Source: an uncultured Bacilli bacterium
Lineage (GTDB): Bacteria > Bacillota_I > Bacilli_A > RF39 > UBA660
Length of the DNA: 40,621 nucleotides
Direction: 5' to 3'
NCBI GenBank assembly: GCA_947627675.1
Contig: CANQWY010000008.1
Location: 1 to 40,621, forward strand
Part shown: piece after piece, positions 3,795-33,337 of the stretch
How the letters are laid out: each line of letters opens with the position of its first letter
Numbering within the stretch: the first letter of the stretch is position 1
Made by a program: the position numbers and the translations under genes
Notes under the pieces: generated by a model
The model's input: the letters and a program-made list of their open reading frames with translations, nothing else
Database searches by the model: none
Told to the model about the DNA's origin: nothing

Positions 3795-4019
3795 ATGAAA
3801 GAAATAATAGGAGAAAATGCAAAACAGGGGTATAGGGAATATTTACAAACATTAAGGAAAACTAAAAGAAAAGAAAGAGCATTATCAATATTTATAGGCT
3901 TATTTATAGTAAGTGCAACTGGTTTATTAATGATATTAAGTTCAAAATTAACTGATGATGCACAAAAAAACTGCATTGAAGCAGGACACAGTGAGGCTTA
4001 CTGTGAAGCCAAGTTATAA
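3795..4019 (+). CDS. Small membrane protein of the early operon
   Basis: This 74-aa protein has a strongly basic N-terminal half (YLQTLRKTKRKERA) followed by one membrane segment at about 30-50 (SIFIGLFIVSATGLLMIL). A short tail with two Cys follows (NCIEAGHSEAYCEAKL). It is preceded by an AGAGG site and lies between the HTH gene and the replication gene. The function is unknown. Confidence 0.65.
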   Translation: MKEIIGENAKQGYREYLQTLRKTKRKERALSIFIGLFIVSATGLLMILSSKLTDDAQKNCIEAGHSEAYCEAKL

Positions 4020-19479: not shown

Positions 19480-19555
19480 CGCAGGGTAGAGCAGTTGGTA
19501 GCTTACAAGTGTCGTTAACTTGTGGTCGTAGGTTCAAGTCCTACCCCTGCAACCA
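19480..19555 (+). tRNA. Initiator-type tRNA with anticodon CGU (reads ACG)
   Basis: A full 76-base cloverleaf can be folded by hand. The acceptor is CGCAGGG/CCCTGCA with C1 x A72 unpaired, followed by A73 and an encoded CCA. The D stem is GAGC/GCTT with A11:T24. The anticodon stem is CAAGT/ACTTG with loop GTCGTTA, placing CGT at 34-36 (19513-19515). The variable loop is TGGTC and the T arm GTAGG-TTCAAGT-CCTAC. C1 x A72 and A11:U24 are the hallmarks of bacterial initiator tRNA, and the 3' half closely follows tRNA-fMet. The three G-C pairs of the anticodon stem are missing. It precedes a block of genes with ACG starts, so it is most likely a dedicated ACG initiator. Confidence 0.93.
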
Positions 19556-19580: not shown

Positions 19581-19793
19581 ACGAATTTAGATAAAATGAT
19601 AAAGGTAAAGTTATTAACATTAAGTTCTAAATATGATATATCTCTGATAGAAATACAAAAACCTAAAGATGGTAAAATAAGCAGAGTATTTAATTTTAAT
19701 TATAGATTAAAAGATGCTCCGAAGTTAGATAATATTTGTAAAATATTTTATAACAAGAGAGACTTAGTGAGTTGGTTATTATGCCTAGATTAA
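19581..19793 (+). CDS. Small protein before terminase, ACG start
   Basis: The product is 70 aa if it starts at ACG 19581. AGGAGG (19568-19573) is 7 bases before this ACG, an ideal spacing, whereas the first ATG (19596) is 22 bases away. The sequence after the start is NLDKMIKVKLLTLSSKYD and the rest looks alpha/beta (KDGKISRVFNFNYRLKD). It is the first gene after the tRNA and overlaps the terminase start. The function is unknown; it is not an obvious small terminase. Confidence 0.65.
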   Translation, partial: TNLDKMIKVKLLTLSSKYDISLIEIQKPKDGKISRVFNFNYRLKDAPKLDNICKIFYNKRDLVSWLLCLD

Positions 19794-21415
19794 CTGATAA
19801 GCAGAGAAAAGAGATAATTGCCGAGTATGTTGACTGTCAAAGTTACAACAAAGTTGCTAAAAAACATAAAATATCTGCTACTACTGTTAAAAAATGGGTA
19901 TTAAAAGATGTTGATAGTGTAAAAAAGTGCGAACAAAAAAAAGAAGAGAATACACAATCAATGCTATCAATGATAGAACAAACCAATAACAAGCGACTTA
20001 CTGTTATTTCTAAATTAGTTGATGCAATTGATTCAAAAATTGATAAAGTAGACCAATTTACAAATGTAAAAGATTTAGCTAGTGCATATGGAGTACTTAT
20101 AGATAAAGAGTTAAAGTTTGCCGAAATGCAAAATATTAAAAAGAATGCTGATGGGCAAAATGTTTCTTTACCTGCTAAGGATATTGGAAAATCATTTGTA
20201 GATTTAAACAGATGGATAGATGATAGAAGATATCTTGAATACTGGTTAGAGGGTGGACGTGCTTCTATAAAATCATCTTTTGCTAGCGAAAAAGGGATAG
20301 AAATTTTAGAAAATAATCCTAATATGTGTGCTATTTGTATTCGTAAAGTGGGAAACACCTTAAAGGATTCTATATATAGTCAAATGTTATGGGGAATAGA
20401 TAAGTTGTCTGAGACTTATCCTGATATTAGAGAACGATGGATAGCAACAAAAAGTCCATTAGAAATAAAAAATAAAGACACTGGACAAATAATTTATTTT
20501 AGAGGTGCAGACGACCCAGGGAAGATAAAATCAATAAAACCACCTAAAGACAAATATATCGGATTAATAATTTATGAAGAGTTTGACCAAATGAATGGAA
20601 TGAATGAAGTGCGAAAAATAGATCAATCAGTAATTCGTGGTGGTAATGATTTCATAGTGTTTAGATTATATAATACACCTAAATCTAACAATCACTTTGT
20701 CAATAAAGAAAAATTATTACCTAAATCCAATAGACTTGTGCATAAAAGCACTTATTTAGATGTGCCAGTTGAATGGTTGGGGCAACCTTTTATAGATGAA
20801 GCAGAATTTATAAAAAGTACCAACTATAAAATATATGTTAATGAATATTTAGGTGAGGCAACTGGAGACGGTGGTAATGTATTTGAAAATGTAGAATTAA
20901 GAGAAATAACTGATGAAGAGATAAAGAACTTTGATTATTTATATCAAGGCATGGATTTTGGGTGGTATCCCGACCCACTTGCTTGGGTAAAGATGTGTTA
21001 TCAATCAAACAAATTAACATTGTACATTTTCAATGAATTTGTAGTTAATAAAATGAGTAATGCAGATGTTTGGAAATATTTAAAAGAGAATAAAGGTGTT
21101 AAAGAAGAAGACCTAATAACTGCTGACAGTGCAGAGCCTAAATCAATAGGTGATTTTCAAAGTTATGGCTCATTGATGAGAGGTGCTAAAAAAGGTCCTG
21201 ATAGTGTGGAATATTCAATGAAATGGTTATCTGGTTTAGTTAAGATAGTTATAGATCCAAAAAGATGCCCTAAATGTGCCGAGGAATTTACAACATATGA
21301 ATATGAACAAGATAAAGACGGCAATTATATAAGTGGTTATGTTGATAAAGACAATCACTGCATAGATGCTGTAAGGTATGGTTTAAATCCTATATGGAGA
21401 AAGAAAGGAGAATAA
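19781..21415 (+). CDS. terL: Terminase with fused small-like and large subunits
   Basis: The product is 544 aa from ATG 19781; a TTG at 19772 is possible. Residues 1-120 (LTDKQRKEIIAEYVDCQSYN, then HTH KHKISATTVKKWVL) look like a small-terminase DNA-recognition domain. From about 130 the large subunit begins: Walker A variant WLEGGRASIKSSF, Walker B LIIYEEFDQM, and nuclease Asp residues in GMDFGWYPDP, ITADSAEP and HCIDAVRYGL. It cuts and pumps concatemeric DNA into heads. Large terminases usually have about 420-450 aa, and no separate small subunit is seen. This gene keeps a normal ATG start. Confidence 0.9.
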   Translation: MPRLTDKQRKEIIAEYVDCQSYNKVAKKHKISATTVKKWVLKDVDSVKKCEQKKEENTQSMLSMIEQTNNKRLTVISKLVDAIDSKIDKVDQFTNVKDLASAYGVLIDKELKFAEMQNIKKNADGQNVSLPAKDIGKSFVDLNRWIDDRRYLEYWLEGGRASIKSSFASEKGIEILENNPNMCAICIRKVGNTLKDSIYSQMLWGIDKLSETYPDIRERWIATKSPLEIKNKDTGQIIYFRGADDPGKIKSIKPPKDKYIGLIIYEEFDQMNGMNEVRKIDQSVIRGGNDFIVFRLYNTPKSNNHFVNKEKLLPKSNRLVHKSTYLDVPVEWLGQPFIDEAEFIKSTNYKIYVNEYLGEATGDGGNVFENVELREITDEEIKNFDYLYQGMDFGWYPDPLAWVKMCYQSNKLTLYIFNEFVVNKMSNADVWKYLKENKGVKEEDLITADSAEPKSIGDFQSYGSLMRGAKKGPDSVEYSMKWLSGLVKIVIDPKRCPKCAEEFTTYEYEQDKDGNYISGYVDKDNHCIDAVRYGLNPIWRKKGE

Positions 21416-21416
21416 A

Positions 21417-22715
21417 ACGTTTAAATTATTTTGGAGTAAAATTCTTGCTTTGTTTGGCAAAAAGCAGAACAATGATGAATTATTAATTGATGCAAACGAA
21501 AAATTTACAATAGATTATGAAAATACCAGAGATATTAATTTTACATCTATATTTTCCAACAAATTAGCAAATTATGTGGTAAATGATTCTAATATAGATT
21601 TAACAGGGGATGATAAAAGATCAGAACTGTTAAAAAAGATATTAAAAAAGTTAAGAAAGAAATTAAAAAAAGTAGTATGTCGAGAGTTAGGAACAGGCGG
21701 TGTTCTTGTTATTCCATATGTCACTAATAACAATATTTATTACAATATAGTTTCACAAAATAGATTGTGCATAAATAAAAAAATAGGTGACGATATAGTA
21801 GACTGTACTATAATGGCAGAGCATGTTGTAAAAAGCAAAAACCATTATTATAGATGGGCAGATTATACTTTGAACGATGGTACATTGTATGTTAAGTATA
21901 GGGCTACATTGGATGGTGACCCAGTACCTCTTTCAACAATTAATGAATGGGCAAACATAGAAGATATGGTTATACCTAACGTTGAAAAAATGCTATTCGC
22001 TTATATAAAGTCTCCAATAGATAATAGACACGAGAATGATGACTACGGAGTGCCTATAACTTATGGTTGCGATAAGCAAATTATGGAGATTAAAGATACA
22101 TTAAATCAAATATTGAGAGAATATAAACTTAAAGAGGCATTTGTAGGAGCAGATGTAACAATGTTTAAGGGTGATGATGCACTACCTACTAATGGCTTAT
22201 ATAAAAAAGTTAATTCTGGGGAAGATGACTTTTGGGAAGTATTTGATCCAGCATTTAGGGATACATCTTACTATAATAAGTTGATGAATCAATGCGCCTT
22301 ATTAGAAAAGCAAATAGGTACAAGTAGAGGAATTATTACAGAGCCATTATCAACATATCAAAATACAGATGAGACAAGGCGCTCATTATACGACACATTT
22401 AGTATAGTTGATGATATACGAGACGGAATAGTCGATGGGTTAGAAGATTTTATATATGCATGTAATGTTTTAGCAAATTATTATAATTTAACACCAATGG
22501 GAAAATATGAGATAAAAATAGATTGGGATTATTCGTATATTGAGGATAGCTCTGCGAATTATAATCAATTAGTTAGTGGTGTTAATCAGGGTGTTATAAA
22601 GAAATCTGAATTAAGACAATTTATTAAACCTGAAGAAACTTTAGAACAGGCGCAAGCAGTAATAGATGAAATAAAAAAAGAGAGCCCAACTACAAAGGAT
22701 TTATTAGGAGATTGA
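21417..22715 (+). CDS. Portal protein, ACG start
   Basis: The product is 432 aa from ACG 21417, read as MFKLFWSKILALFGKKQNND. AAAGGAG lies 6 bases before the ACG. The track start (TTG 21450) has no ribosome binding site and would cut off the amphipathic N-terminal helix usual in portals. The middle (NIYYNIVSQNRLCIN, later GTSRGIITEPLSTYQNTDETRRSLYDTF) and the C-terminal EETLEQAQAVIDEI fit SPP1/A118-type portal proteins. The portal forms the dodecameric vertex through which terminase loads DNA. It starts 2 bases after the terminase stop. Confidence 0.88.
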   Translation, partial: TFKLFWSKILALFGKKQNNDELLIDANEKFTIDYENTRDINFTSIFSNKLANYVVNDSNIDLTGDDKRSELLKKILKKLRKKLKKVVCRELGTGGVLVIPYVTNNNIYYNIVSQNRLCINKKIGDDIVDCTIMAEHVVKSKNHYYRWADYTLNDGTLYVKYRATLDGDPVPLSTINEWANIEDMVIPNVEKMLFAYIKSPIDNRHENDDYGVPITYGCDKQIMEIKDTLNQILREYKLKEAFVGADVTMFKGDDALPTNGLYKKVNSGEDDFWEVFDPAFRDTSYYNKLMNQCALLEKQIGTSRGIITEPLSTYQNTDETRRSLYDTFSIVDDIRDGIVDGLEDFIYACNVLANYYNLTPMGKYEIKIDWDYSYIEDSSANYNQLVSGVNQGVIKKSELRQFIKPEETLEQAQAVIDEIKKESPTTKDLLGD

Positions 22716-22960: not shown

Positions 22961-24700
22961 ATGTTGAGTGAAGAAGCGCTAGAGAGATTATCAGAAAGAC
23001 TTGTAGATAGAATAGAAGAGTTAAACCTATTCATGATTAATAAACTAGGTGAACAAATAATGAGAATTGGTACATTAACGCCTACACAGTTAAGAGAGAT
23101 ATTCCAATCAGTCAAATATGGTAATGATCTTAATGAGATAATAAGTAAAATTGCTGAAATAACAAATAAGAATGTAGCAGATATATATAATATATTTGAA
23201 GAGGTTGCTAAGAAAAATCAGATATTTGCTAAACAGTTTTATGATTATAAAAAAATATCATTTATACCTTATGATAGCAATGTTGAATTAAAAAGTATGG
23301 TAAATGCTTTAGCTAAAGTTACTGCCGATAAATTCAATAATATAGCTCAAACTTCAGCTTATGCAATTTTAAATAGTAAAGGCGATTTAGAGTATACCAA
23401 ATTAAGTGAGGTATATCAAAAACTTACGGATGAAGCAATTTTAAATGTATCTACAGGAAGAGAAACATTTGAGCAAGCAATGAAAAACACTATGAAAGAA
23501 TTAACTTCAAGAGGCATTCAGGATGTAAATTATGCAACGGGCTATCATAGAAGATTAGATAGTTCTGTAAGAATGAATATGAATGATGGTATAAAAAATT
23601 TAACGAATGAACTTCAAAGAAAATTTGGAGAAGAATTTGGTGCCAATGGCGTAGAAGTAGTTCATCATATATATCCGGCTCCTGATCACTCAAGTAAAGA
23701 AAAAGAAGGTTGGTATGATATAGATGGTAAGCAATTTACTAATGAAGAATTTAAGAAAGTAAATGATAGTTTAAATAGGCAAGTAAGCGATATGAATTGC
23801 AAACATTTAACAGTACCCATTATTCTTGGGATCAGTGAACCTTTATATAGTGAAGATCAACTAAAAGCTGATAAAGAAGCCAATTTAAAAGGATTCGAAT
23901 TTGAAGGTAATCATTATACTATGTATGAGGGAACACAATTACAAAGGCAAATAGAGACTAAAATAAGACAATATAAAGATAGACAAATAGGTGCAAAGGC
24001 AATTAATGATAAAGACGAAGTGTATCGTTGTCAAGAAAAACTAGACCAATTAACCCAAAAATATAAGAATTTATCTGATGTAAGTGGATTGCCTACAAAA
24101 GTAGATAGGTTAAGAGTTGATGGGTACAGAAAGGTTAATATTAATAAAAGTTTATATGATGATAGTTCTGATATAAGATATAAATATAGCACAAATGAGA
24201 TAATATCTAAAGCAAAAGACATAACAACTAATAACTTTTATGAAAAAACAAAAGGTGTAAAAATAGAAAGACTAAATGAGAATTATAGTTATTATCAACC
24301 TTATACAAATAAAATTTATTTGGGGAAAAAGGCCAATGAATATAGTTTAATACATGAATTAGGGCATAAATTGTCATTTAACTTTACAGAAGAAGAAAAA
24401 ATACAGTATAATAATATATTAAGGGAAAAATTTTCTTTTTATAAAAAATCAGATTTCAAAAAAATCGAAAGTAAAACAGGTAAATATTGGGTGCTAAAAA
24501 ATAGCGATGGATTTATAACCGAATATCAGAGTAGAATATATGATGGCTTTAGGTCATTTGTTAATGGTAAGCCAAATATTAAATATGCTTATGAATATAT
24601 ATCAGTTGGAATAGAATACTATTTTAAAAACCCAAGATTGTTAAAAAACACAGATAAAGAATTATATAATTTTATAGATAGGATGTTAAAAGATGAATAG
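22961..24700 (+). CDS. Minor capsid protein with C-terminal zincin domain
   Basis: This 579-aa protein has an N-terminal 390 aa of the phage minor capsid protein 2 type (ALERLSERLVDRIEELNLFM, TGRETFEQAMKNTMKELTSRGI, DMNCKHLTVPIILGI and GNHYTMYEGTQLQRQIETKI). From about 400 it adds KAKDITTNNFYEKTKGVKIE and a metalloprotease-like EYSLIHELGHKLSF, then GFRSFVNGKPNIKYAYEYIS and KNPRLLKNTDKELYNFIDRM. HELGH is an HExxH zinc motif. Such variable C-terminal enzyme domains occur in virion proteins that may enter the host with the DNA. The start is ATG. Confidence 0.82.
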   Translation: MLSEEALERLSERLVDRIEELNLFMINKLGEQIMRIGTLTPTQLREIFQSVKYGNDLNEIISKIAEITNKNVADIYNIFEEVAKKNQIFAKQFYDYKKISFIPYDSNVELKSMVNALAKVTADKFNNIAQTSAYAILNSKGDLEYTKLSEVYQKLTDEAILNVSTGRETFEQAMKNTMKELTSRGIQDVNYATGYHRRLDSSVRMNMNDGIKNLTNELQRKFGEEFGANGVEVVHHIYPAPDHSSKEKEGWYDIDGKQFTNEEFKKVNDSLNRQVSDMNCKHLTVPIILGISEPLYSEDQLKADKEANLKGFEFEGNHYTMYEGTQLQRQIETKIRQYKDRQIGAKAINDKDEVYRCQEKLDQLTQKYKNLSDVSGLPTKVDRLRVDGYRKVNINKSLYDDSSDIRYKYSTNEIISKAKDITTNNFYEKTKGVKIERLNENYSYYQPYTNKIYLGKKANEYSLIHELGHKLSFNFTEEEKIQYNNILREKFSFYKKSDFKKIESKTGKYWVLKNSDGFITEYQSRIYDGFRSFVNGKPNIKYAYEYISVGIEYYFKNPRLLKNTDKELYNFIDRMLKDE

Positions 24701-24893
24701 AGAAGAATTATTGAAAATAAATGACAAAGAGTTGTTTGAAGAAGAATTAATAAAAATATCTAAAGACTATGAGAGCAACATAAAAAAATGGGATGAAGAT
24801 TTAATAGAACATTATTTAAAAATAGCAGATATAAGTCTAGAGCAATTTAAAAATAGTTTTGATGATAATTTTATTCCAGAAGATTATGAATAA
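24693..24893 (+). CDS. Small acidic protein behind the zincin-bearing gene
   Basis: This 66-aa acidic helical protein reads MNREELLKINDKELFEEELI and ends NFIPEDYE. It overlaps the previous stop by 8 bp and is followed directly by a terminator. The position behind a gene with a toxin-like C-terminal domain suggests a partner or inhibitor of that domain, which is only inference. Confidence 0.6.
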   Translation: MNREELLKINDKELFEEELIKISKDYESNIKKWDEDLIEHYLKIADISLEQFKNSFDDNFIPEDYE

Positions 24894-24903
24894 AAAAATA
24901 AAT

Positions 24904-24930
24904 AAAGCACTTAAGAAGTAAAGTGCTTTT
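24904..24930 (+). terminator. Terminator after the minor capsid pair
   Basis: AAAGCACTT and AAGTGCTTT form a perfect 9-bp stem around AAGAAGTA, and the stem ends in four T residues. It separates the head-gene transcript from structured RNA B. Confidence 0.65.
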
Positions 24931-24931
24931 A

Positions 24932-25232
24932 TTATGCACTACTTTATAGGTAGTGTGATGGTAGTATATATGAGCGGATAGGAACCTTATACTGTTTCTT
25001 GACGAAGAAACGCCAAGTGTACATATAAAGGCAAGTAGGGTGGAGTTATGAAAATTCCTATGGCAGTCGGGTGGAACTCCCCATCCGTCAGTAAAACAGT
25101 ATATTACTGTCACAGTGCTTATAAAATAGCACTATCACTCATCTACCAAGAGTAGATAGAGTCCTTGTGTCGTTAATAATTAAATGTTGACGATAACTGT
25201 TTTAAGTCGATAGAAGTATCGGCTTTTTTGGT
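24932..25232 (+). ncRNA. Structured RNA B, related to RNA A
   Basis: This ORF-free stretch of about 300 bases lies between two terminators. Hairpins are CACTAC/GTAGTG (24937-24955), GTTTCTT/AAGAAAC (24994-25011), GGAGTT/AACTCC (25042-25080), ACAGTA/TACTGT (25096-25110), AGTGCT/AGCACT (25114-25133) and ATCTAC/GTAGAT (25141-25157). It shares with RNA A the opening hairpin followed by TGATGGTA, and TATGGCAGTCGGGTGGAACT (25059-25078) against TATAGCAGTCGGATAGAACT in RNA A. This supports common ancestry and an RNA-level function. The role is unknown. Confidence 0.6.
25206..25229 (+). terminator. Terminator of structured RNA B
   Basis: GTCGATA pairs with TATCGGC (one G-T) around GAAG and is followed by TTTTTT. 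It closes the RNA B region upstream of the scaffold gene. Between it and the scaffold ribosome binding site about 70 bases hold no clear promoter. Confidence 0.7.
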
Positions 25233-25315
25233 GTGGCATAGCAACCGTAGGACTAGCAAATATCTAAAATTCTAGGAGGACACGACCTCTGAAAAAAGTG
25301 GAAGGAGAAGAAGAT

Positions 25316-25930
25316 ATGAAAGAATTTTTGGAAAGTTTAGAAATCGGAGAAGGTAAGGTAAAGTTAAGTAAAGATGAAATTAAATCTATTTTAACTGAAA
25401 GTGGAAAGATTGTTACTAATGAGACTCAAAAAGTAAAGGACTCATTTAATGATGAAATTAACACTTATAAAACTACTATTACTAAATTGGAAAATCAAAT
25501 TAAGGATATGCCAAGTTCTGATGATGTAACTAAACTTCAAAACGAGATTAAAGCATTAAAAGATGCCGAGACTCAAAGACTTGCCGATGAACAATCAAAA
25601 AGAGAAGATGAAGTATTAACATCTAATATTTTAAGTTCATTTGGTGACAAAAAATTTGCAAGTGATTATGCAAAGAATGGATTAATTGCTGATATCAAGT
25701 CTGAATTAAGTAAACCCGAAAATAAAGGAAAAGGAATAAGTGAAATAATGGAATACTTAACAAAAGATAAAGATGGAATTTTTGAAAATCCAAATAAGCC
25801 AAAAGATATGCCATCAATGGGAGATGTAACAACAGAAGTTACAAAAGAGGCATTTGACAAAATGGGTTATAGGGAAAGAATAAAATTCAAACAAGAAAAT
25901 CCAGAAAAATTTAAAGAATTTAATAATTAG
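25316..25930 (+). CDS. Capsid scaffolding protein
   Basis: The product is 204 aa from ATG 25316, behind AAGGAG; the track start is GTG 25298. It is an acidic, nearly all-helical protein with a long coiled coil (EINTYKTTITKLENQIKDMP...VTKLQNEIKALKDAETQRL). It ends with a short motif (MGYRERIKFKQENPEKFKEF) typical of phage scaffolds (DUF4355 type). Located directly before the major capsid gene, it would template procapsid assembly and then leave. Confidence 0.82.
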   Translation: MKEFLESLEIGEGKVKLSKDEIKSILTESGKIVTNETQKVKDSFNDEINTYKTTITKLENQIKDMPSSDDVTKLQNEIKALKDAETQRLADEQSKREDEVLTSNILSSFGDKKFASDYAKNGLIADIKSELSKPENKGKGISEIMEYLTKDKDGIFENPNKPKDMPSMGDVTTEVTKEAFDKMGYRERIKFKQENPEKFKEFNN

Positions 25931-25946: not shown

Positions 25947-26804
25947 ACGGAAAATTTAACAAAATTAGAAAACATGATTGACCCTGAGGTCATGGCACCA
26001 ATGATAAGTGCCAAATTAGAAAAGGCTATTGTAGAAACTCCATTTGTAAAGGTTGATACAACATTACAAGGACAGCCAGGAAGTACTGTTACAGTACCAA
26101 AATATAAATATATAGGAGATGCTGAGGATGTTGCAGAAGGTGTTGAAGCTGGTGTAACTAAATTAGAGACATCTAGTGAACAATACACAATAAAAAAGAC
26201 AATGAAAGCAGTAACATTATCTGATGAAGCAGTATTAAGTGGTTATGGTAATCCAGTAGGAGAAACTAATAATCAATTAGCACTTGCTATGCGTGCTAAA
26301 GTAAATACTGACATTATCAATGCTTTATTGACTGCATCATTAACTCACTCTGAAGAAGGGATTATTAGTTATGAAGGTATAGTAAGAGCAATTGATAAGT
26401 TTAATGAAGAAGTAAATACTGATAAGGTAATGTATGTTTCTCCAGCTCAAGTTACACAATTAAGACTTGACCCAAATTTCATTAGTGCAGACAAATATAA
26501 CAATGATGTTGTTATGACTGGTGAAATAGGTAAAATCGCTAATGCTAGAATTATACCTAGTAGAAAGATAGTTGCAAGTGGAAGTAAATTTAAATGTCCT
26601 ATTGTTCAATTAAACCCTGAACCAATGACAGATGATGATACTCCAGCAGTAACTGTATATTTAAAACGTGATATTAATGTTGAAACTGAGAGACATACAC
26701 TTTCAAGAACAACTGATATATCTGCTGATGAAAATTATATTGCTGCATTAACTGATGAGAGTAAAGTAGTAGTTGTTGAATTTGCAGAAACTGCTACACC
26801 CTAA
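25947..26804 (+). CDS. Major capsid protein, HK97 fold, ACG start
   Basis: The product is 285 aa from ACG 25947, read as MENLTKLENMIDPEVMAPMI. This is the N-terminus expected in this capsid family. AAGGA sits 7 bases before the ACG; the first ATG (25974) has none and would remove part of the conserved start. GQPGSTVTVPKYKYIGDAEDVAEGV and KKTMKAVTLSDEAVLSGYGNPVGE belong to HK97-like capsids of siphoviruses. The ORF ends ETATP and TAA, where a CCC TAA context probably allows +1 slippage into the next feature. Confidence 0.92.
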   Translation, partial: TENLTKLENMIDPEVMAPMISAKLEKAIVETPFVKVDTTLQGQPGSTVTVPKYKYIGDAEDVAEGVEAGVTKLETSSEQYTIKKTMKAVTLSDEAVLSGYGNPVGETNNQLALAMRAKVNTDIINALLTASLTHSEEGIISYEGIVRAIDKFNEEVNTDKVMYVSPAQVTQLRLDPNFISADKYNNDVVMTGEIGKIANARIIPSRKIVASGSKFKCPIVQLNPEPMTDDDTPAVTVYLKRDINVETERHTLSRTTDISADENYIAALTDESKVVVVEFAETATP

Positions 26805-27174
26805 ACCAGCCCAAAAAACGGTAACAATAACTTTACCTGAGGGCGAAGTTTTAGGAATGAATGTAAGTTCATTACAAGAGGCTGAAATCAATGATATTAA
26901 AATAACTGGTACTTCTAAATATGTTGAAAGTTTTCCTGAATTTAGCAAGAGTGCTAAAGGTAATTTCTTAGCAATAAAGTGCGATGAGGCTACAAAAGGT
27001 GAAACAATTAACTGGGAATTATCAGAAGCTAAAACTAAAGGAAAAGGTACTTTAGATGAGGATGGTATCTTAGTAGTTCAACTACATTCAAATACTCAGA
27101 CTATAACACTTAAAAACGGTGAAACATCTAAAGTATTAGATTTAAAGGGCTTAACATTAAGCCCATCAGAATAG
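26803..27174 (+). CDS. Frameshifted C-terminal extension of capsid, Ig-like domain
   Basis: An open +1 frame continues from the capsid stop. It has no start codon with a ribosome binding site. After CCC TAA, reading AAA CCA GCC gives KPAQKTVTITLPEGEVLGMN. A domain of about 110 aa follows, resembling bacterial Ig-like or decoration domains (GETINWELSEAKTKGKGTLDEDGI). A fusion of about 408 aa would form when the ribosome slips on CCC. A +1 frameshift at the capsid end is known in Listeria phage PSA. An ACG at 26818 could in theory start a separate protein, but it has no Shine-Dalgarno sequence. Confidence 0.75.
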   Translation, partial: KPAQKTVTITLPEGEVLGMNVSSLQEAEINDIKITGTSKYVESFPEFSKSAKGNFLAIKCDEATKGETINWELSEAKTKGKGTLDEDGILVVQLHSNTQTITLKNGETSKVLDLKGLTLSPSE

Positions 27175-27192: not shown

Positions 27193-27573
27193 ATGGAATT
27201 TAAAAACCAATATCTAACTTATGAAGAATATAAGGAATTAGGGGGAAAATTAATAGAAAAGCCCTTTAATTTGTTAGAATTTAAAGCAGAAAAAACTGTT
27301 GATGAAATAACATTTAACCGTTTTAGAAAGTTATCTAAAGAAGAATATCCACAAGAATTAAAAATGTGTGTATATGACTTAATAGACATTATCCATAGTG
27401 AAGGTAAATCCAACTCTCCAGTTAGTGAAACAGTAGGAAGTTATAGTATAACAAGACAATCAGCAGAAACTATAAAAAAGAACAAAGGAGAAATTATAAC
27501 GCAATACTTATCAGGAGTAAAGGTTGATGATGTTCCTGTTCTTTATAGAGGTGCAGATTTAAATGGAAACTAA
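27193..27573 (+). CDS. Head-tail connector, Gp6-like/adaptor
   Basis: This 126-aa protein has YLTYEEYKELGGKLIEKPFN, then FKAEKTVDEITFNRFRKL and ELKMCVYDLIDIIHSE. This is the helical plan of phage head-tail connector complex proteins. It follows the capsid gene and opens the connector block. ATG is preceded by AAAGGAGGG at 8 bases. Confidence 0.78.
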   Translation: MEFKNQYLTYEEYKELGGKLIEKPFNLLEFKAEKTVDEITFNRFRKLSKEEYPQELKMCVYDLIDIIHSEGKSNSPVSETVGSYSITRQSAETIKKNKGEIITQYLSGVKVDDVPVLYRGADLNGN

Positions 27574-27916
27574 TACAAGTCTTACATTGTTTCATAAACG
27601 ATTTAATACGGAAAGTAGAATTGATGAATGGGATAGATATTTAATTGAAAATGTTATGTGGCAAGGAGGAAAAGGTGCTAGTATCAACAAAGGTTATGAA
27701 AGAGCTAATGATATTAGCGTTTGGATACCTTATGACCAAAACAATGATTTAAATGCTGTCCCTTTTGCTATTGGAGATATAGTTGTAAAAGGAAATATTG
27801 AGCAAAGTATCACTAAACAAAGTGATTTGCAGGTAGACAATTTTAATATTACAACTTTAATAAATAATGATTATGGAAGTTACGATATGCAACATATTTT
27901 TATAGGAGCAAAATAA
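27563..27916 (+). CDS. Connector/minor capsid protein, head completion
   Basis: This 117-aa protein reads TSLTLFHKRFNTESRIDEWDRYLIENVMWQGG and later VWIPYDQNNDLNAVPFAIGDIVVKG. It matches the second connector protein found after the capsid gene in A118-like phages. Its TAA stop shares its last A with the ACG of the next gene. The start is ATG, with GAGGTG upstream. Confidence 0.72.
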   Translation: METNTSLTLFHKRFNTESRIDEWDRYLIENVMWQGGKGASINKGYERANDISVWIPYDQNNDLNAVPFAIGDIVVKGNIEQSITKQSDLQVDNFNITTLINNDYGSYDMQHIFIGAK

Positions 27917-28317
27917 CGAGTGTTTATTTGAAGCCGGTAAGCACTATAGAAGCAAGGTTAGGTATTCAAAACGGTGGACCAGCTCATGCTTATTTCACAG
28001 AACAGTGCTATAAACATATGATGCCGTTTGTTCCCGGTGGAGTTATAAGTCATTTAAATAATCTTGCAAAGTTAAACGTTGACAGTATAACTTATGCAAG
28101 CCCAGATGCACATTATTTATATGTAGGAAAGTTATACGTTGATCCAGTAACAAAAAGTAGTTATGCAAGAAAAGGTGTAACAAAAATTCCTACTAATAAG
28201 AATTTAAAATATCATACACTTGGTACAGGTGCTTTTTGGGATAGAAGAATGATAAGTTTTGACATGAATGAGGTAGTGAAAGAAGTACAGACGTATGTAG
28301 ATAGAGGGTGTAAATAA
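27916..28317 (+). CDS. Minor capsid/connector protein, ACG start
   Basis: The product is 133 aa from ACG 27916, read as MSVYLKPVSTIEARLGIQNG. AGGAG is 7 bases upstream. The track start (TTG 27928) lacks a site. AHAYFTEQCYKHMMPFVPGG and LKYHTLGTGAFWDRRMISFD are typical of the minor capsid/head-tail joining proteins in this position. The ACG overlaps the previous TAA stop by one base (TAACG), the counterpart of a TAATG overlap. Confidence 0.8.
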   Translation, partial: TSVYLKPVSTIEARLGIQNGGPAHAYFTEQCYKHMMPFVPGGVISHLNNLAKLNVDSITYASPDAHYLYVGKLYVDPVTKSSYARKGVTKIPTNKNLKYHTLGTGAFWDRRMISFDMNEVVKEVQTYVDRGCK

Positions 28318-28739
28318 CGATAGATAAGATAAGGAAATATTTTATTGAAAATAATATTATTGATGAAAATGGCAGAATTAATGTAGATTTCTTAGGTGAA
28401 AATCCTACGGAATTTGCCTTAGAACCCATGCCTGTTAATCCAATATTAAATTCGTTTATTAATGGTGATTCTTTAAGACAATTTCAATTTCAACTGTTAA
28501 GTTGCAATTATTATGGAGCAGATGTAATGCAAAACATGTCTAATAGCAAATATTATGAGGACTTATATAAATTGATAGAGAAATTTAATAGAGAAAAGAA
28601 CCTGCCTAATATAGAGGGTATTAAAACTATCGAATGCTTAAATAATGGTGGAATTTTAGATGCTAGTACAAATACTGCTAGGTATTCTATACAAATGAGA
28701 GTTACTTATTATGAAAATCAGAGAGGAGTAAATAAATGA
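28317..28739 (+). CDS. Tail terminator-like protein, ACG start
   Basis: The product is 140 aa from ACG 28317, read as MIDKIRKYFIENNIIDENGR. The track ORF starts only at 28428, losing the segment RINVDFLGENPTEFALEPMP that is conserved in this minor capsid/tail terminator family. The ribosome binding site is a weaker AGAGGGTG. The ACG overlaps the upstream TAA by one base. The protein probably caps the tail tube and joins it to the head. Confidence 0.78.
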   Translation, partial: TIDKIRKYFIENNIIDENGRINVDFLGENPTEFALEPMPVNPILNSFINGDSLRQFQFQLLSCNYYGADVMQNMSNSKYYEDLYKLIEKFNREKNLPNIEGIKTIECLNNGGILDASTNTARYSIQMRVTYYENQRGVNK

Positions 28740-28957
28740 AAACTATAATAGCAAAAAAAGACTTTAGACTTAATGGAAAATACTATTATAGAGATAGTGA
28801 AATCAAAATAAAGAATTATGCTGATTTAGTTAAATTAAATCAAAATGGATTTATTATACCTCTAAGTTCTGAAGATATGAAAGAAAAAAAAGAAGAGTTA
28901 AAAAATAAAAGAAGTGTTACTTTGAAAAAAAAGAAGGAGGAAGAAGTAAACGGATAA
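28736..28957 (+). CDS. Small protein before tail tube
   Basis: This 73-aa protein reads MKTIIAKKDFRLNGKYYYRD, followed by a very Lys/Glu-rich tail. It overlaps the previous stop by 4 bp behind AGAGGAG. Small beta-then-charged proteins are common between terminator and tube genes. The function is unknown. Confidence 0.6.
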   Translation: MKTIIAKKDFRLNGKYYYRDSEIKIKNYADLVKLNQNGFIIPLSSEDMKEKKEELKNKRSVTLKKKKEEEVNG

Positions 28958-29438
28958 TAAATTAGAACAATTATATCGTGATCAATTTGCTCATTATTAT
29001 AATACTACACCTGATAAAGAAGAAACTTGGGTAAGAGAAGGAGTAGGTGTAGAGGCCTTAAGTATGGCTTTTAATGCACAAGTAGATCAATACAAAACTA
29101 TAATTGACAGAAATGCCAATGCGACATTTAATAACTATCAAATACAAAGTGCTGTAAGTGGTAAAAGAATTTATAAAGGCGATGCAATTTATGATTTCTT
29201 AAATACTGCTAGAAAAAAAGCAAAAGCCATTGAAACTCAATTACTAGAAGTAGATATGGCTGATAGTGCAGATGAGGGCGAAAGCTTTGCATCATTAAAG
29301 TACAATGTATTAATAGTAATAAATGAATTTTTAGGGGACGGAGCAACAATAAGCTATGATTTATATGTAAAAGGGGATCCTGTTGAGGGAACATCAACTA
29401 TTGCTGATGGTAAACCAACTTTTACAGCAACAGTTTAG
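28950..29438 (+). CDS. Major tail tube protein, ACG start
   Basis: The product is 162 aa from ACG 28950, read as MDNKLEQLYRDQFAHYYNTT. AAGGAGG stands 9 bases before the ACG. The track start (29064) would lose 38 residues, including the TPDKEETWVREGVGVEALSM segment. The C-terminal half (ALIYDFLNTARKKAKAIETQ-type helix and FASLKYNVLIVINEFLGDGA) fits tube proteins of this phage type. A terminator follows directly, as is common for this very abundant product. Confidence 0.8.
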   Translation, partial: TDNKLEQLYRDQFAHYYNTTPDKEETWVREGVGVEALSMAFNAQVDQYKTIIDRNANATFNNYQIQSAVSGKRIYKGDAIYDFLNTARKKAKAIETQLLEVDMADSADEGESFASLKYNVLIVINEFLGDGATISYDLYVKGDPVEGTSTIADGKPTFTATV

Positions 29439-30603: not shown

Positions 30604-32952
30604 ACGGATGGTTGGATTACAATAGGTACTAAATTAGATTCAAACAGTTTGGACAAGGATTTAAGGGATAGTGAAAGAAAACTTAAACAATACGAACGAG
30701 AGGCAGAGAAATTAACAAAACAAAAGGCAAAAATAGATATTGATTTAAGTAGTTATGAAGCAGAAAAGACTAAAATACAAGAAGAAACAGACGAAATATT
30801 AAAACAAGCAAATGCGGAAGAGCAAGTTAACTATATATTAGAATCCGAGAAAATACAGTTGGAAGATTTAGAAACCAAATATAAAAAAATTTTAGATAAA
30901 AATAATGAAATAACAAAAGAATTAGAAGAAAATATAAGTAATCAAGGATTATTAAACACCAAAGTTTCTGAAATGAAAGAAAAATTATCTCAGACTCAAG
31001 GTTACAATGAAGTAAAAAAATCTATTGATAATATAGGTAATTCGATGAGTAGCATAATAGGAAAGGTTGCAAAATGGTCTTTAGCTATTTTTAGTGTAAG
31101 AAGCGCTTATTCTTTAATTAGTAGTTCAATGAGTACACTTTCACAATATGATGAGCAAATGGCTACGGATATTGAATATATTAGATATGCTTTAGCATCA
31201 GCATTAAAGCCGGTAATAGAGGGCATTATTCAACTTGTTTATAAATTGTTAGCATATGTAAATTATTTAGCACAGGCTTGGTTTGGTGTAAATTTATTCG
31301 CTAAAGCGGGTGCTGATAATTTTGCTAAAGTAAGTAGTGGGATAAAGGATGCTACTAATAATGCAAAGGAATTAAATAAGCAACTAACTGGATTTGATGA
31401 AATGAATGTATTACAAGAGAATGGTCAAGTTTCAACAGGTGGTGGAGGTGGAGGAACAACTTTGCCAAGTGTTGATTTAGGAAATATTCAAGATGTAGAA
31501 ATACCAAGTTGGTTAAAATGGATTAAAGATAATGGGGAACTTATTGCAGGACTTATTACAGGGATAGGATTAGCATTATTGGGATTTAAAATAGGAAATT
31601 TTATTTCTAATATAACAAATAGTGGAAAAGCACTACAAGGTTTTGGGGATATAGTATCTAGTGCTACATTCTTAACAGGACTAACAATACTTATTACGCA
31701 TTTATCTAACTTAATTACTCACTGGAATAGCCTAGATACATCTGAGAAAGCTGCTGAAGTTGTTTTTGTTGCATTCGGAGTTGCACTTATGGCGCTAGCA
31801 GTTGTAATAAGAACAGCAATAGATACTGCTACATTTGGAGTTGCTGAAATCATAAGTTTAGTTGTAATAGCAATTGCAGGACTTGTTGCAGGAATATCAG
31901 AATTAACAAGTGTTTTGAATGATAATAATGGTAGAGTGTTTGATGCTACTGAAGCACAAGAGAATTTAACTGATGCGATTAACAATACAAAACAAGCAAC
32001 AGAGAATTATGCCAACTTCTTAGATAATTATGATAATGCTGTCAAAAGAGCTGAAGAGGCTACAGAAAAATTAACTACCGTTCAAAATGAAACAGGAATA
32101 AGCATAGATAAACTTTTAGAAAAAATGGAAGAAGAAAATTTATCTTATATAGATTTAAATGATAATGAAAAAAAAGTTTATAAAGCTTATTATGACAATA
32201 TGGCGGCTCAAGACAATCTAAAGAAATCCACACAAGATTTGGAAGAGGGGGTTGATGCTATAGTTGAAGCTAAAAAGACTGAGCATGATGCTTATTGGAA
32301 GAATGAAGTTGCTATAGCACAACAAAATAAATCTTACGATAAATTAAAAGAAAAAGTTATTGATGCATTTAAAAATGGAGAATTAAGTGCAGAAAGTGCT
32401 AGAGATATAATAGCAAGATGTATGGGGGATATGAGCGAAGATGCAGCCAAAACTTTCGGGAAAGATATACCTAAAGAAATAAAAGAGGGATTAGATCCTC
32501 AACAATATCATTCTAATGGATATAAATTAGGAAAATTTTTTGAAAATACTTGGAATGAAGCATTTAAATCTGTTAAGGATACTTTTAATAGTATTGGAAA
32601 ATTCTTTGGATTTTCTTCTGGAGGAGTAACAACAGGTAAAACAGGTTTCTACAATGGTGGTATCATTGGATTTGAAAATGGCGGAGTAACTAGGAATGTT
32701 GTTAAATGTGCTAACGGTTCTATTATAAATCAACCTGGAAGAGGAGTACCTATATCAACAGCAGTCGGTGGAGAACGCGGACAAGAAGGTATAATTCCAT
32801 TAACTAATAGTCAAATGATGGAACAACTTGGACAAGCAATAGGAAGATATATAACTGTAAATACACAAATGAACAATTATATGAATGGTAGATTAATAAG
32901 TAGAGAGATACAAAAAGTACAAAATAATAGTGATTTTGCAATGAACAGATAG
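30604..32952 (+). CDS. Tail tape measure protein, ACG start
   Basis: The product is 782 aa from ACG 30604, read as MDGWITIGTKLDSNSLDKDL, which is the classic tape-measure N-terminus. AAAGGAG is 6 bases before the ACG. The track ATG (30568) lies inside the upstream gene and has no site. Features are a long N-terminal coiled coil (30-160), a hydrophobic GLITGIGLALLGFKIGNFIS and GVALMALAVVIRTAID region, Gly-rich STGGGGGGTT, and a C-terminal GGVTTGKTGFYNGGIIGFEN. It sets tail length and forms part of the DNA channel. Confidence 0.92.
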   Translation, partial: TDGWITIGTKLDSNSLDKDLRDSERKLKQYEREAEKLTKQKAKIDIDLSSYEAEKTKIQEETDEILKQANAEEQVNYILESEKIQLEDLETKYKKILDKNNEITKELEENISNQGLLNTKVSEMKEKLSQTQGYNEVKKSIDNIGNSMSSIIGKVAKWSLAIFSVRSAYSLISSSMSTLSQYDEQMATDIEYIRYALASALKPVIEGIIQLVYKLLAYVNYLAQAWFGVNLFAKAGADNFAKVSSGIKDATNNAKELNKQLTGFDEMNVLQENGQVSTGGGGGGTTLPSVDLGNIQDVEIPSWLKWIKDNGELIAGLITGIGLALLGFKIGNFISNITNSGKALQGFGDIVSSATFLTGLTILITHLSNLITHWNSLDTSEKAAEVVFVAFGVALMALAVVIRTAIDTATFGVAEIISLVVIAIAGLVAGISELTSVLNDNNGRVFDATEAQENLTDAINNTKQATENYANFLDNYDNAVKRAEEATEKLTTVQNETGISIDKLLEKMEEENLSYIDLNDNEKKVYKAYYDNMAAQDNLKKSTQDLEEGVDAIVEAKKTEHDAYWKNEVAIAQQNKSYDKLKEKVIDAFKNGELSAESARDIIARCMGDMSEDAAKTFGKDIPKEIKEGLDPQQYHSNGYKLGKFFENTWNEAFKSVKDTFNSIGKFFGFSSGGVTTGKTGFYNGGIIGFENGGVTRNVVKCANGSIINQPGRGVPISTAVGGERGQEGIIPLTNSQMMEQLGQAIGRYITVNTQMNNYMNGRLISREIQKVQNNSDFAMNR

Positions 32953-32962
32953 GAGTGGTGTA

Positions 32963-33337
32963 ACGTATGTAGATAAAGACAGTGTTGTTGTAGATGGGCT
33001 ATCTATGGGGCCATATATTGTACAGGCAACATTCGGATATTATAAATTATGGAGTTCTGACAGTGGCAGAAACCTAGCAGGAACACAATCAGGAACATTA
33101 ATAGGAATTTTCCCTAAAATAATACTAGAATTTAGACCAGATTTAACAAAAGATGAATTAAATAAAATAGCTGCTATTTTAGATAAAGCAAATCAAACTG
33201 TTGAGTATTTTGATGCTAATAAAAACAAGAAAATAACAATGACTACTTATACTGGAGATTGGGAATTGGTAAATACAAGCATAAATAAAAACAAAGGGTT
33301 TAATTGTTCATTTATAAGTGTTAGGAAGAGAGCATAA
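32963..33337 (+). CDS. Distal tail protein-like, ACG start
   Basis: The product is 124 aa from ACG 32963, read as MYVDKDSVVVDGLSMGPYIV. AGGAG is 7 bases upstream. An ATG two codons further (taacgtATG) is out of frame and meets a stop at once. The track start (33005) cuts off the conserved N-terminus. YYKLWSSDSGRNLAGTQSGT...IFPKIILEFRPDLTKDELNK matches the short protein between tape measure and tail endopeptidase in many Bacillota phages. Confidence 0.8.
   Translation, partial: TYVDKDSVVVDGLSMGPYIVQATFGYYKLWSSDSGRNLAGTQSGTLIGIFPKIILEFRPDLTKDELNKIAAILDKANQTVEYFDANKNKKITMTTYTGDWELVNTSINKNKGFNCSFISVRKRA

Follow-up and report, generated by a model that had tools for sequence, protein, structure and literature searches.

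A phage in an uncultured Bacilli bacterium in all likelihood encodes a second initiator tRNA dedicated to the codon ACG. This tRNA has the body of tRNA-fMet with the anticodon CGU, and eight genes of the adjacent virion module begin with ACG. It lies in a stretch of 40,621 nucleotides, hereafter called the window (contig of a 1.57-Mb, 94-contig genome; 28% GC; integrase at the left end). Three features can be read directly from the DNA: the anatomy of the tRNA, the match between start codon and anticodon across relatives, and the exchange of one start codon for another between orthologous genes. Considered together, they indicate that the tRNA is very probably a working, dedicated ACG initiator.

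Initiator body with an altered anticodon arm

A single tRNA was called at 19480-19555 by both ARAGORN and Rfam (RF00005, 51.6 bits), and its predicted fold is a cloverleaf. The acceptor stem (CGCAGGG/CCCTGCA) leaves 1:72 unpaired, and the D stem (GAGC/GCTT) contains a purine 11:pyrimidine 24 pair; both are marks of initiator tRNAs. The variable loop reads TGGTC. The anticodon arm is composed of a stem (19506-19510/19518-19522) and a loop (GTCGTTA, 19511-19517), in which G32 is found at 19511, CGU instead of CAU at 19513-19515 and U37 at 19516.

The host's own initiator has the arm TTGGG-CTCATAA-CCCAA with all three characteristic G-C pairs. In the window tRNA, 29:41 is A-U and 31:39 is U-A, and G30:C40 is retained. 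The original prediction, according to which the stem CAAGT/ACTTG lacks the three pairs, is thus correct for the two outer pairs and wrong for the middle one. It also described an arm replaced or heavily re-evolved on an initiator body, with U at position 37. The combination of C1:A72 and A11:U24 with such an arm bears this out, as does U37, although the latter proves common in this class of tRNAs: among 12 lineages in which cognate starts were seen (see below), nine have U37 and three A37. All 12 of them keep G30:C40, and so do the 28 phage tRNAs compared except L165 (27 of 28). Since weakening of the stem recurs in the class while G30:C40 is kept, the absence of the two outer pairs does not argue strongly against function. 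By these counts, the arm is unlike that of tRNA-fMet but typical of altered-anticodon initiators.

ACG starts in the virion module

The tRNA gene immediately precedes the virion-assembly module and has the same orientation. Behind it come, in order, the 70-aa ORF, large terminase, portal, minor capsid, scaffold, major capsid and tail genes. All eight ACG-start genes are downstream of the tRNA (Table 1).

Table 1. The tRNA and the virion-module genes of the window, with start codons of homologues in other sequences (L numbers)
Feature	Position	Strand	Start	Details
Initiator-body tRNA, anticodon CGU, CCA encoded	19480..19555	+		C1:A72, A11:U24, G2-C71, C3-G70, A73
Anticodon arm CAAGT-GTCGTTA-ACTTG	19506..19522	+		Anticodon CGU; U37; sole initiator G-C pair G30:C40
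Conserved 70-aa ORF	19581..19793	+	ACG	SD AGGAGG; ATG in L137, L138, L141; AGG in L139, L154
Large terminase	19781..21415	+	ATG	Terminase_3, 2.5e-24; query for finding relatives
Portal protein	21417..22715	+	ACG	phrog_533, 7.7e-59; ATG/GTG in tRNA-less relatives; AGG in L139, L154
Minor capsid protein	22961..24700	+	ATG	PF06152, 4e-51; AGG in both CCU relatives
Scaffold	25316..25930	+	ATG	PF06810
Major capsid protein	25947..26804	+	ACG	phrog_544, 9e-79; homologues in L041, L045, L053 have ATG 1-2 codons away
Minor head protein	27916..28317	+	ACG	TAACG overlap; phrog_556; ATG in L139, L142, L059; AGG in L154
Tail completion protein	28317..28739	+	ACG	TAACG overlap; phrog_3266, 4e-31; AGG in L139, L154 at same junction; ATG in L137
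phrog_3099 protein	28950..29438	+	ACG	Strong SD; putative tail tube, from position; phrog_3099 protein at L191:10358 starts ATA
Tape measure protein	30604..32952	+	ACG	phrog_1535, 3e-21; AGG in L154, GTG in L045, ATG in L142
phrog_1194 protein	32963..33337	+	ACG	phrog_1194

SD sequences above the scan cut-off precede six of the eight ACG codons, and weaker ones are found at the major capsid (AAGGAAG) and minor head (GGAG) genes. The same scan detected no SD-preceded ACG start among ORFs left of the tRNA. Where ACG overlaps the preceding stop codon, as it does in two cases, ATG would read TAATG. Standard ORF calling proposes ATG, GTG or TTG in the vicinity of most of the eight ACG codons; none of these nearby alternatives has an SD above the cut-off. 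Many module genes keep ATG (terminase, minor capsid and scaffold genes and those at 27193, 27563, 28736, 29506, 30003 and 33338), so the switch of start codons is partial.

Start codons follow the anticodon in related phages

Terminase and portal searches of IMG/VR and of the host family yielded relatives of the module. In relatives that have no such tRNA (e.g. L138, L141, L059), ATG or GTG occupies the position of the window's ACG in nearly every alignable orthologue, a few alignments leaving the start undecided. Two further relatives, L139 and L154, possess the initiator body with the anticodon CCU, and AGG is the start codon of orthologous genes there. This concerns the 70-aa ORF, portal, minor capsid and tail completion genes in both, and the minor head and tape measure genes in L154. 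At the junction before the tail completion gene, the window reads TAAATAACG (gtaaataACG) and both CCU relatives read TAAATAAGG (gtaaataAGG). Start codons track the anticodon: ACG occurs with CGU and AGG with CCU among the relatives, ATA with UAU and AAG with CUU in other lineages.

Several loci deviate from this scheme. The tape measure gene of L139 (19916), a phage with a CCU initiator, has GGG behind a strong SD. First-base wobble of CCU, analogous to reading of GUG by CAU, is a tentative explanation of this single case. GGG at 3880 on the reverse strand of L157 looks similar. In L137, an initiator-like CGU tRNA (2216-2289; G1:A72) is located upstream of the terminase gene and neighbouring genes start with ATG; as its 30:40 pair is A-U, this tRNA is perhaps a relic of a lost switch. 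L002 and L003 combine C1:A72 with CGU, yet no ACG starts were seen in them.

Survey of altered-anticodon initiator tRNAs

Three scans of IMG/VR, with a pattern that combined an initiator body with any anticodon other than CAU, retrieved 69 contigs. Adding the window, L139, L154 and L137 brought the total to 73 sequences; position 1:72 is mismatched in 66 of these, which form 32 clusters. Four clusters with GTG as cognate codon were left out. The remaining 28 were each represented by their longest member and searched with one setting, short contigs having little power. We counted cognate codons at SD-preceded ORF starts that have no SD-preceded ATG, GTG or TTG. There were 33 such starts, compared with a permutation mean of 8.5 (sd 3.6, maximum 26 in 20,000; p <= 5e-5); after removal of the window's own cluster, 29 were found and 8.3 expected. 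This cluster permutation is our main statistic; it was preceded by a looser codon count and by a per-codon Fisher test on loci without dereplication.

Individual codons contribute unevenly. Support is greatest for ATA (anticodon UAU) and AGG (CCU); AAG (CUU) and GTT (AAC) come from few loci, and no cognate starts were seen for GAU, GAC, CAG or CCC. In L191 (UAU), ATA starts the portal, major head, phrog_3099 and tape measure genes, a set similar to that starting with ACG in the window. L001 was set aside because its 1:72 position is able to pair (T-A). Because the scan pattern required the initiator body exactly, related tRNAs shaped differently were missed.

The L167 cluster (eight contigs) has a CCU initiator without encoded CCA, and a tape measure gene with AGG and a strong SD was seen in L167, L179 and L187. 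The CGU pattern scan of bacterial genomes gave three matches, all unrelated. Initiator-like CGU tRNAs are present at L110:1154-1229 (Candidatus Jorgensenbacteria MAG) and L109:289-363 (Lysinibacillus contaminans tRNA cluster). Among 11 regions of cultured phages from the annotated collection, ARAGORN called an initiator-like CAU tRNA in 10 and an altered anticodon in none; there was no call in L230, where only the 3' piece had matched. The long regions L167 and L191 had no matches in the phage collection, and L164 matched it in distant pieces only.

Proposed mode of action

Charging, formylation, initiation and a regulatory purpose are what we infer from these data and from known initiator biology. 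With the 1:72 mismatch, A11:U24, G2-C71 and C3-G70 of a tRNA-fMet body, the charged tRNA should be a substrate for formylation, bind IF2 and avoid EF-Tu. Its CGU would pair with ACG behind the SD at the eight starts, where relatives have ATG or GTG. Between the host fMet-tRNA (CAU) and ACG the second codon base does not pair, and this tRNA would start poorly there, so ACG genes are expected to need the phage tRNA. Initiator tRNAs whose anticodon has been altered start translation in vitro at the codon that matches it, provided that the first and second codon bases pair (PMC10158994); in E. coli, both formylation and the G-C pairs matter for initiation (PMC2268962).

Head and tail proteins would consequently become abundant only once the mRNA and the matured, charged tRNA are both present. 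Virion protein synthesis would be coupled to expression of the tRNA-bearing module, and dependence on the tRNA might, for example, guard against leaky expression in the lysogen. A promoter consensus scan of this region found fewer promoter-like sites than in its shuffled versions.

Identity of the initiating amino acid and alternative explanations

Which amino acid starts these proteins was a fair question to raise. Determinants of bacterial tRNA-Thr in the acceptor stem are G1-C72, C2-G71, G4-C69 and G5-C68; those of initiator tRNA-Met include A73, G2-C71 and C3-G70 (PMC9976931). Met determinants present in the window tRNA are A73, G2-C71, C3-G70, U33, C34 and U36, with A35, C32 and A37 absent. 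Thr determinants present are G35, U36 and G5-C68, with G1-C72, C2-G71, G4-C69 and G34 absent. The host tRNA-Thr(CGU) has G1-C72 and C2-G71 where the window tRNA has C1:A72 and G2-C71. In the account of Jones et al. (2011) given in PMC9976931, E. coli MetRS methionylates tRNA-Thr(CGU) and tRNA-Arg(CCU), and the anticodons named there are both anticodons of the window's phage family. Because the acceptor stem fits Met rather than Thr and such mischarging is reported, we lean towards Met (fMet). Against it, MetRS strongly depends on A35, and a G at this position should reduce Met charging. The ANG series (CGU, CCU and CUU), in which C34 and U36 are constant, would be suitable for MetRS, and an AAC initiator would more naturally be charged with Val.

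The same dedicated initiator might instead be charged by ThrRS, with proteins beginning with formyl-Thr or Thr, which we regard as possible but rather unlikely. The earlier argument that G35 and U36 are ThrRS identity bases is sound, as both are determinants, and E. coli initiators given new anticodons accept the amino acid of the matching synthetase (Gln when UAG is read, Val when GUC is read) without losing the ability to initiate (PMC2268962). Yeast elongator tRNA-Met changed to CGU stood in for tRNA-Thr, although this tRNA possesses the terminal acceptor-stem element of tRNA-Thr (PMC8092322). In the window tRNA, however, only one of the four Thr acceptor determinants (G5-C68) is present, which weakens the lean towards Thr. 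Moreover, CCU phage tRNAs mostly have U20 or C20, whereas ArgRS would want A20; this suggests that the codon match was selected rather than the amino acid. A broader scheme, a second natural initiation code of phages under which virion-module proteins take as their first residue not Met but the one specified by the new anticodon (formyl-Thr in the window; formyl-Arg, -Lys, -Ile or -Val in other lineages), seems slightly less likely still.

The anticodon arm is the most altered part of the tRNA, as might be expected if the latter evaded a host anticodon nuclease destroying the host initiator, with changed starts following from the escape. VapC, for instance, targets initiator tRNA, and altered-loop phage tRNAs have been proposed to evade such nucleases (PMC10264068). 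We consider this improbable, since the PIN domain (PF01850) was not matched in the 94%-complete host genome and most window genes keep ATG, for which the host initiator would still be needed. Far less credible is an ordinary elongator tRNA-Thr(CGU), or a decayed tRNA, accompanied by coincidental or misread ACG starts. It accords with the label Thr given by ARAGORN and with the conventional start codons close to most of the eight ACGs, but these lack an SD above the cut-off, the 1:72 mismatch and A11:U24 mark the tRNA as an initiator, and start codons co-vary with the anticodon in relatives and independent lineages alike. Compensation for codon usage was also considered and rejected: internal ACG makes up 20 of 417 Thr codons downstream and 14 of 201 to the left, and with no downstream enrichment and the host's own tRNA-Thr(CGU) at hand, it is unlikely.

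Relation to known systems

In phage stop-codon recoding, certain phage genes depend on a suppressor tRNA of the phage. A phage tRNA needed by some genes is common to both systems, but the window tRNA would act at initiation through a sense codon: CGU reads ACG, and there are no internal stops in the portal and terminase frames. Phage-encoded tRNA-fMet(CAU), present in several phage records, shares the initiator body; it keeps the normal anticodon and requires no change of starts. With bacterial tRNA-fMet, the window tRNA shares the 1:72 mismatch, A11:U24, G2-C71, C3-G70, A73 and G30:C40. It differs in the CGU anticodon, one instead of three G-C pairs, U37, G32, its phage origin and its pairing with altered starts. 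With elongator tRNA-Thr(CGU) it has G35 and U36 in common, and not G1-C72 and C2-G71.

Starts at matching codons are also known from engineered initiators, namely UAG- and GUC-reading tRNA2fMet in E. coli and 64 anticodons in vitro (PMC2268962, PMC10158994). These are laboratory constructs acting on reporters, whereas the system described here is natural and the genome's own starts have changed to match. In the open-licence literature, preprints outside its scope, no natural phage initiator with a non-CAU anticodon was found; as far as that literature reaches, a natural system of the ACG type appears to be unreported.

Start codons are treated as near-fixed, and ATG, GTG and TTG are built into gene finders. 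Apparently a start codon and its tRNA can change together: in this virus some genes seem to have switched to a new start codon with a matching initiator, and relatives seem to have done likewise with different codons. If so, it would be a natural counterpart of engineered initiator mutants and a ready-made orthogonal initiator for synthetic biology. It would also explain some misplaced phage gene starts, and the amino acid permissible on a natural initiator would become directly testable.

Two further observations concern the module itself. Within its tightly packed genes, a 422-base stretch (24893-25316) has no assigned gene. At 26790-27174, the major capsid gene ends in ACA CCC TAA and the +1-shifted frame (ORF 26773-27174) runs on as PKPAQKTVTITLPEG, which suggests a +1 frameshift extension of the major capsid protein. 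L140 may share this layout.
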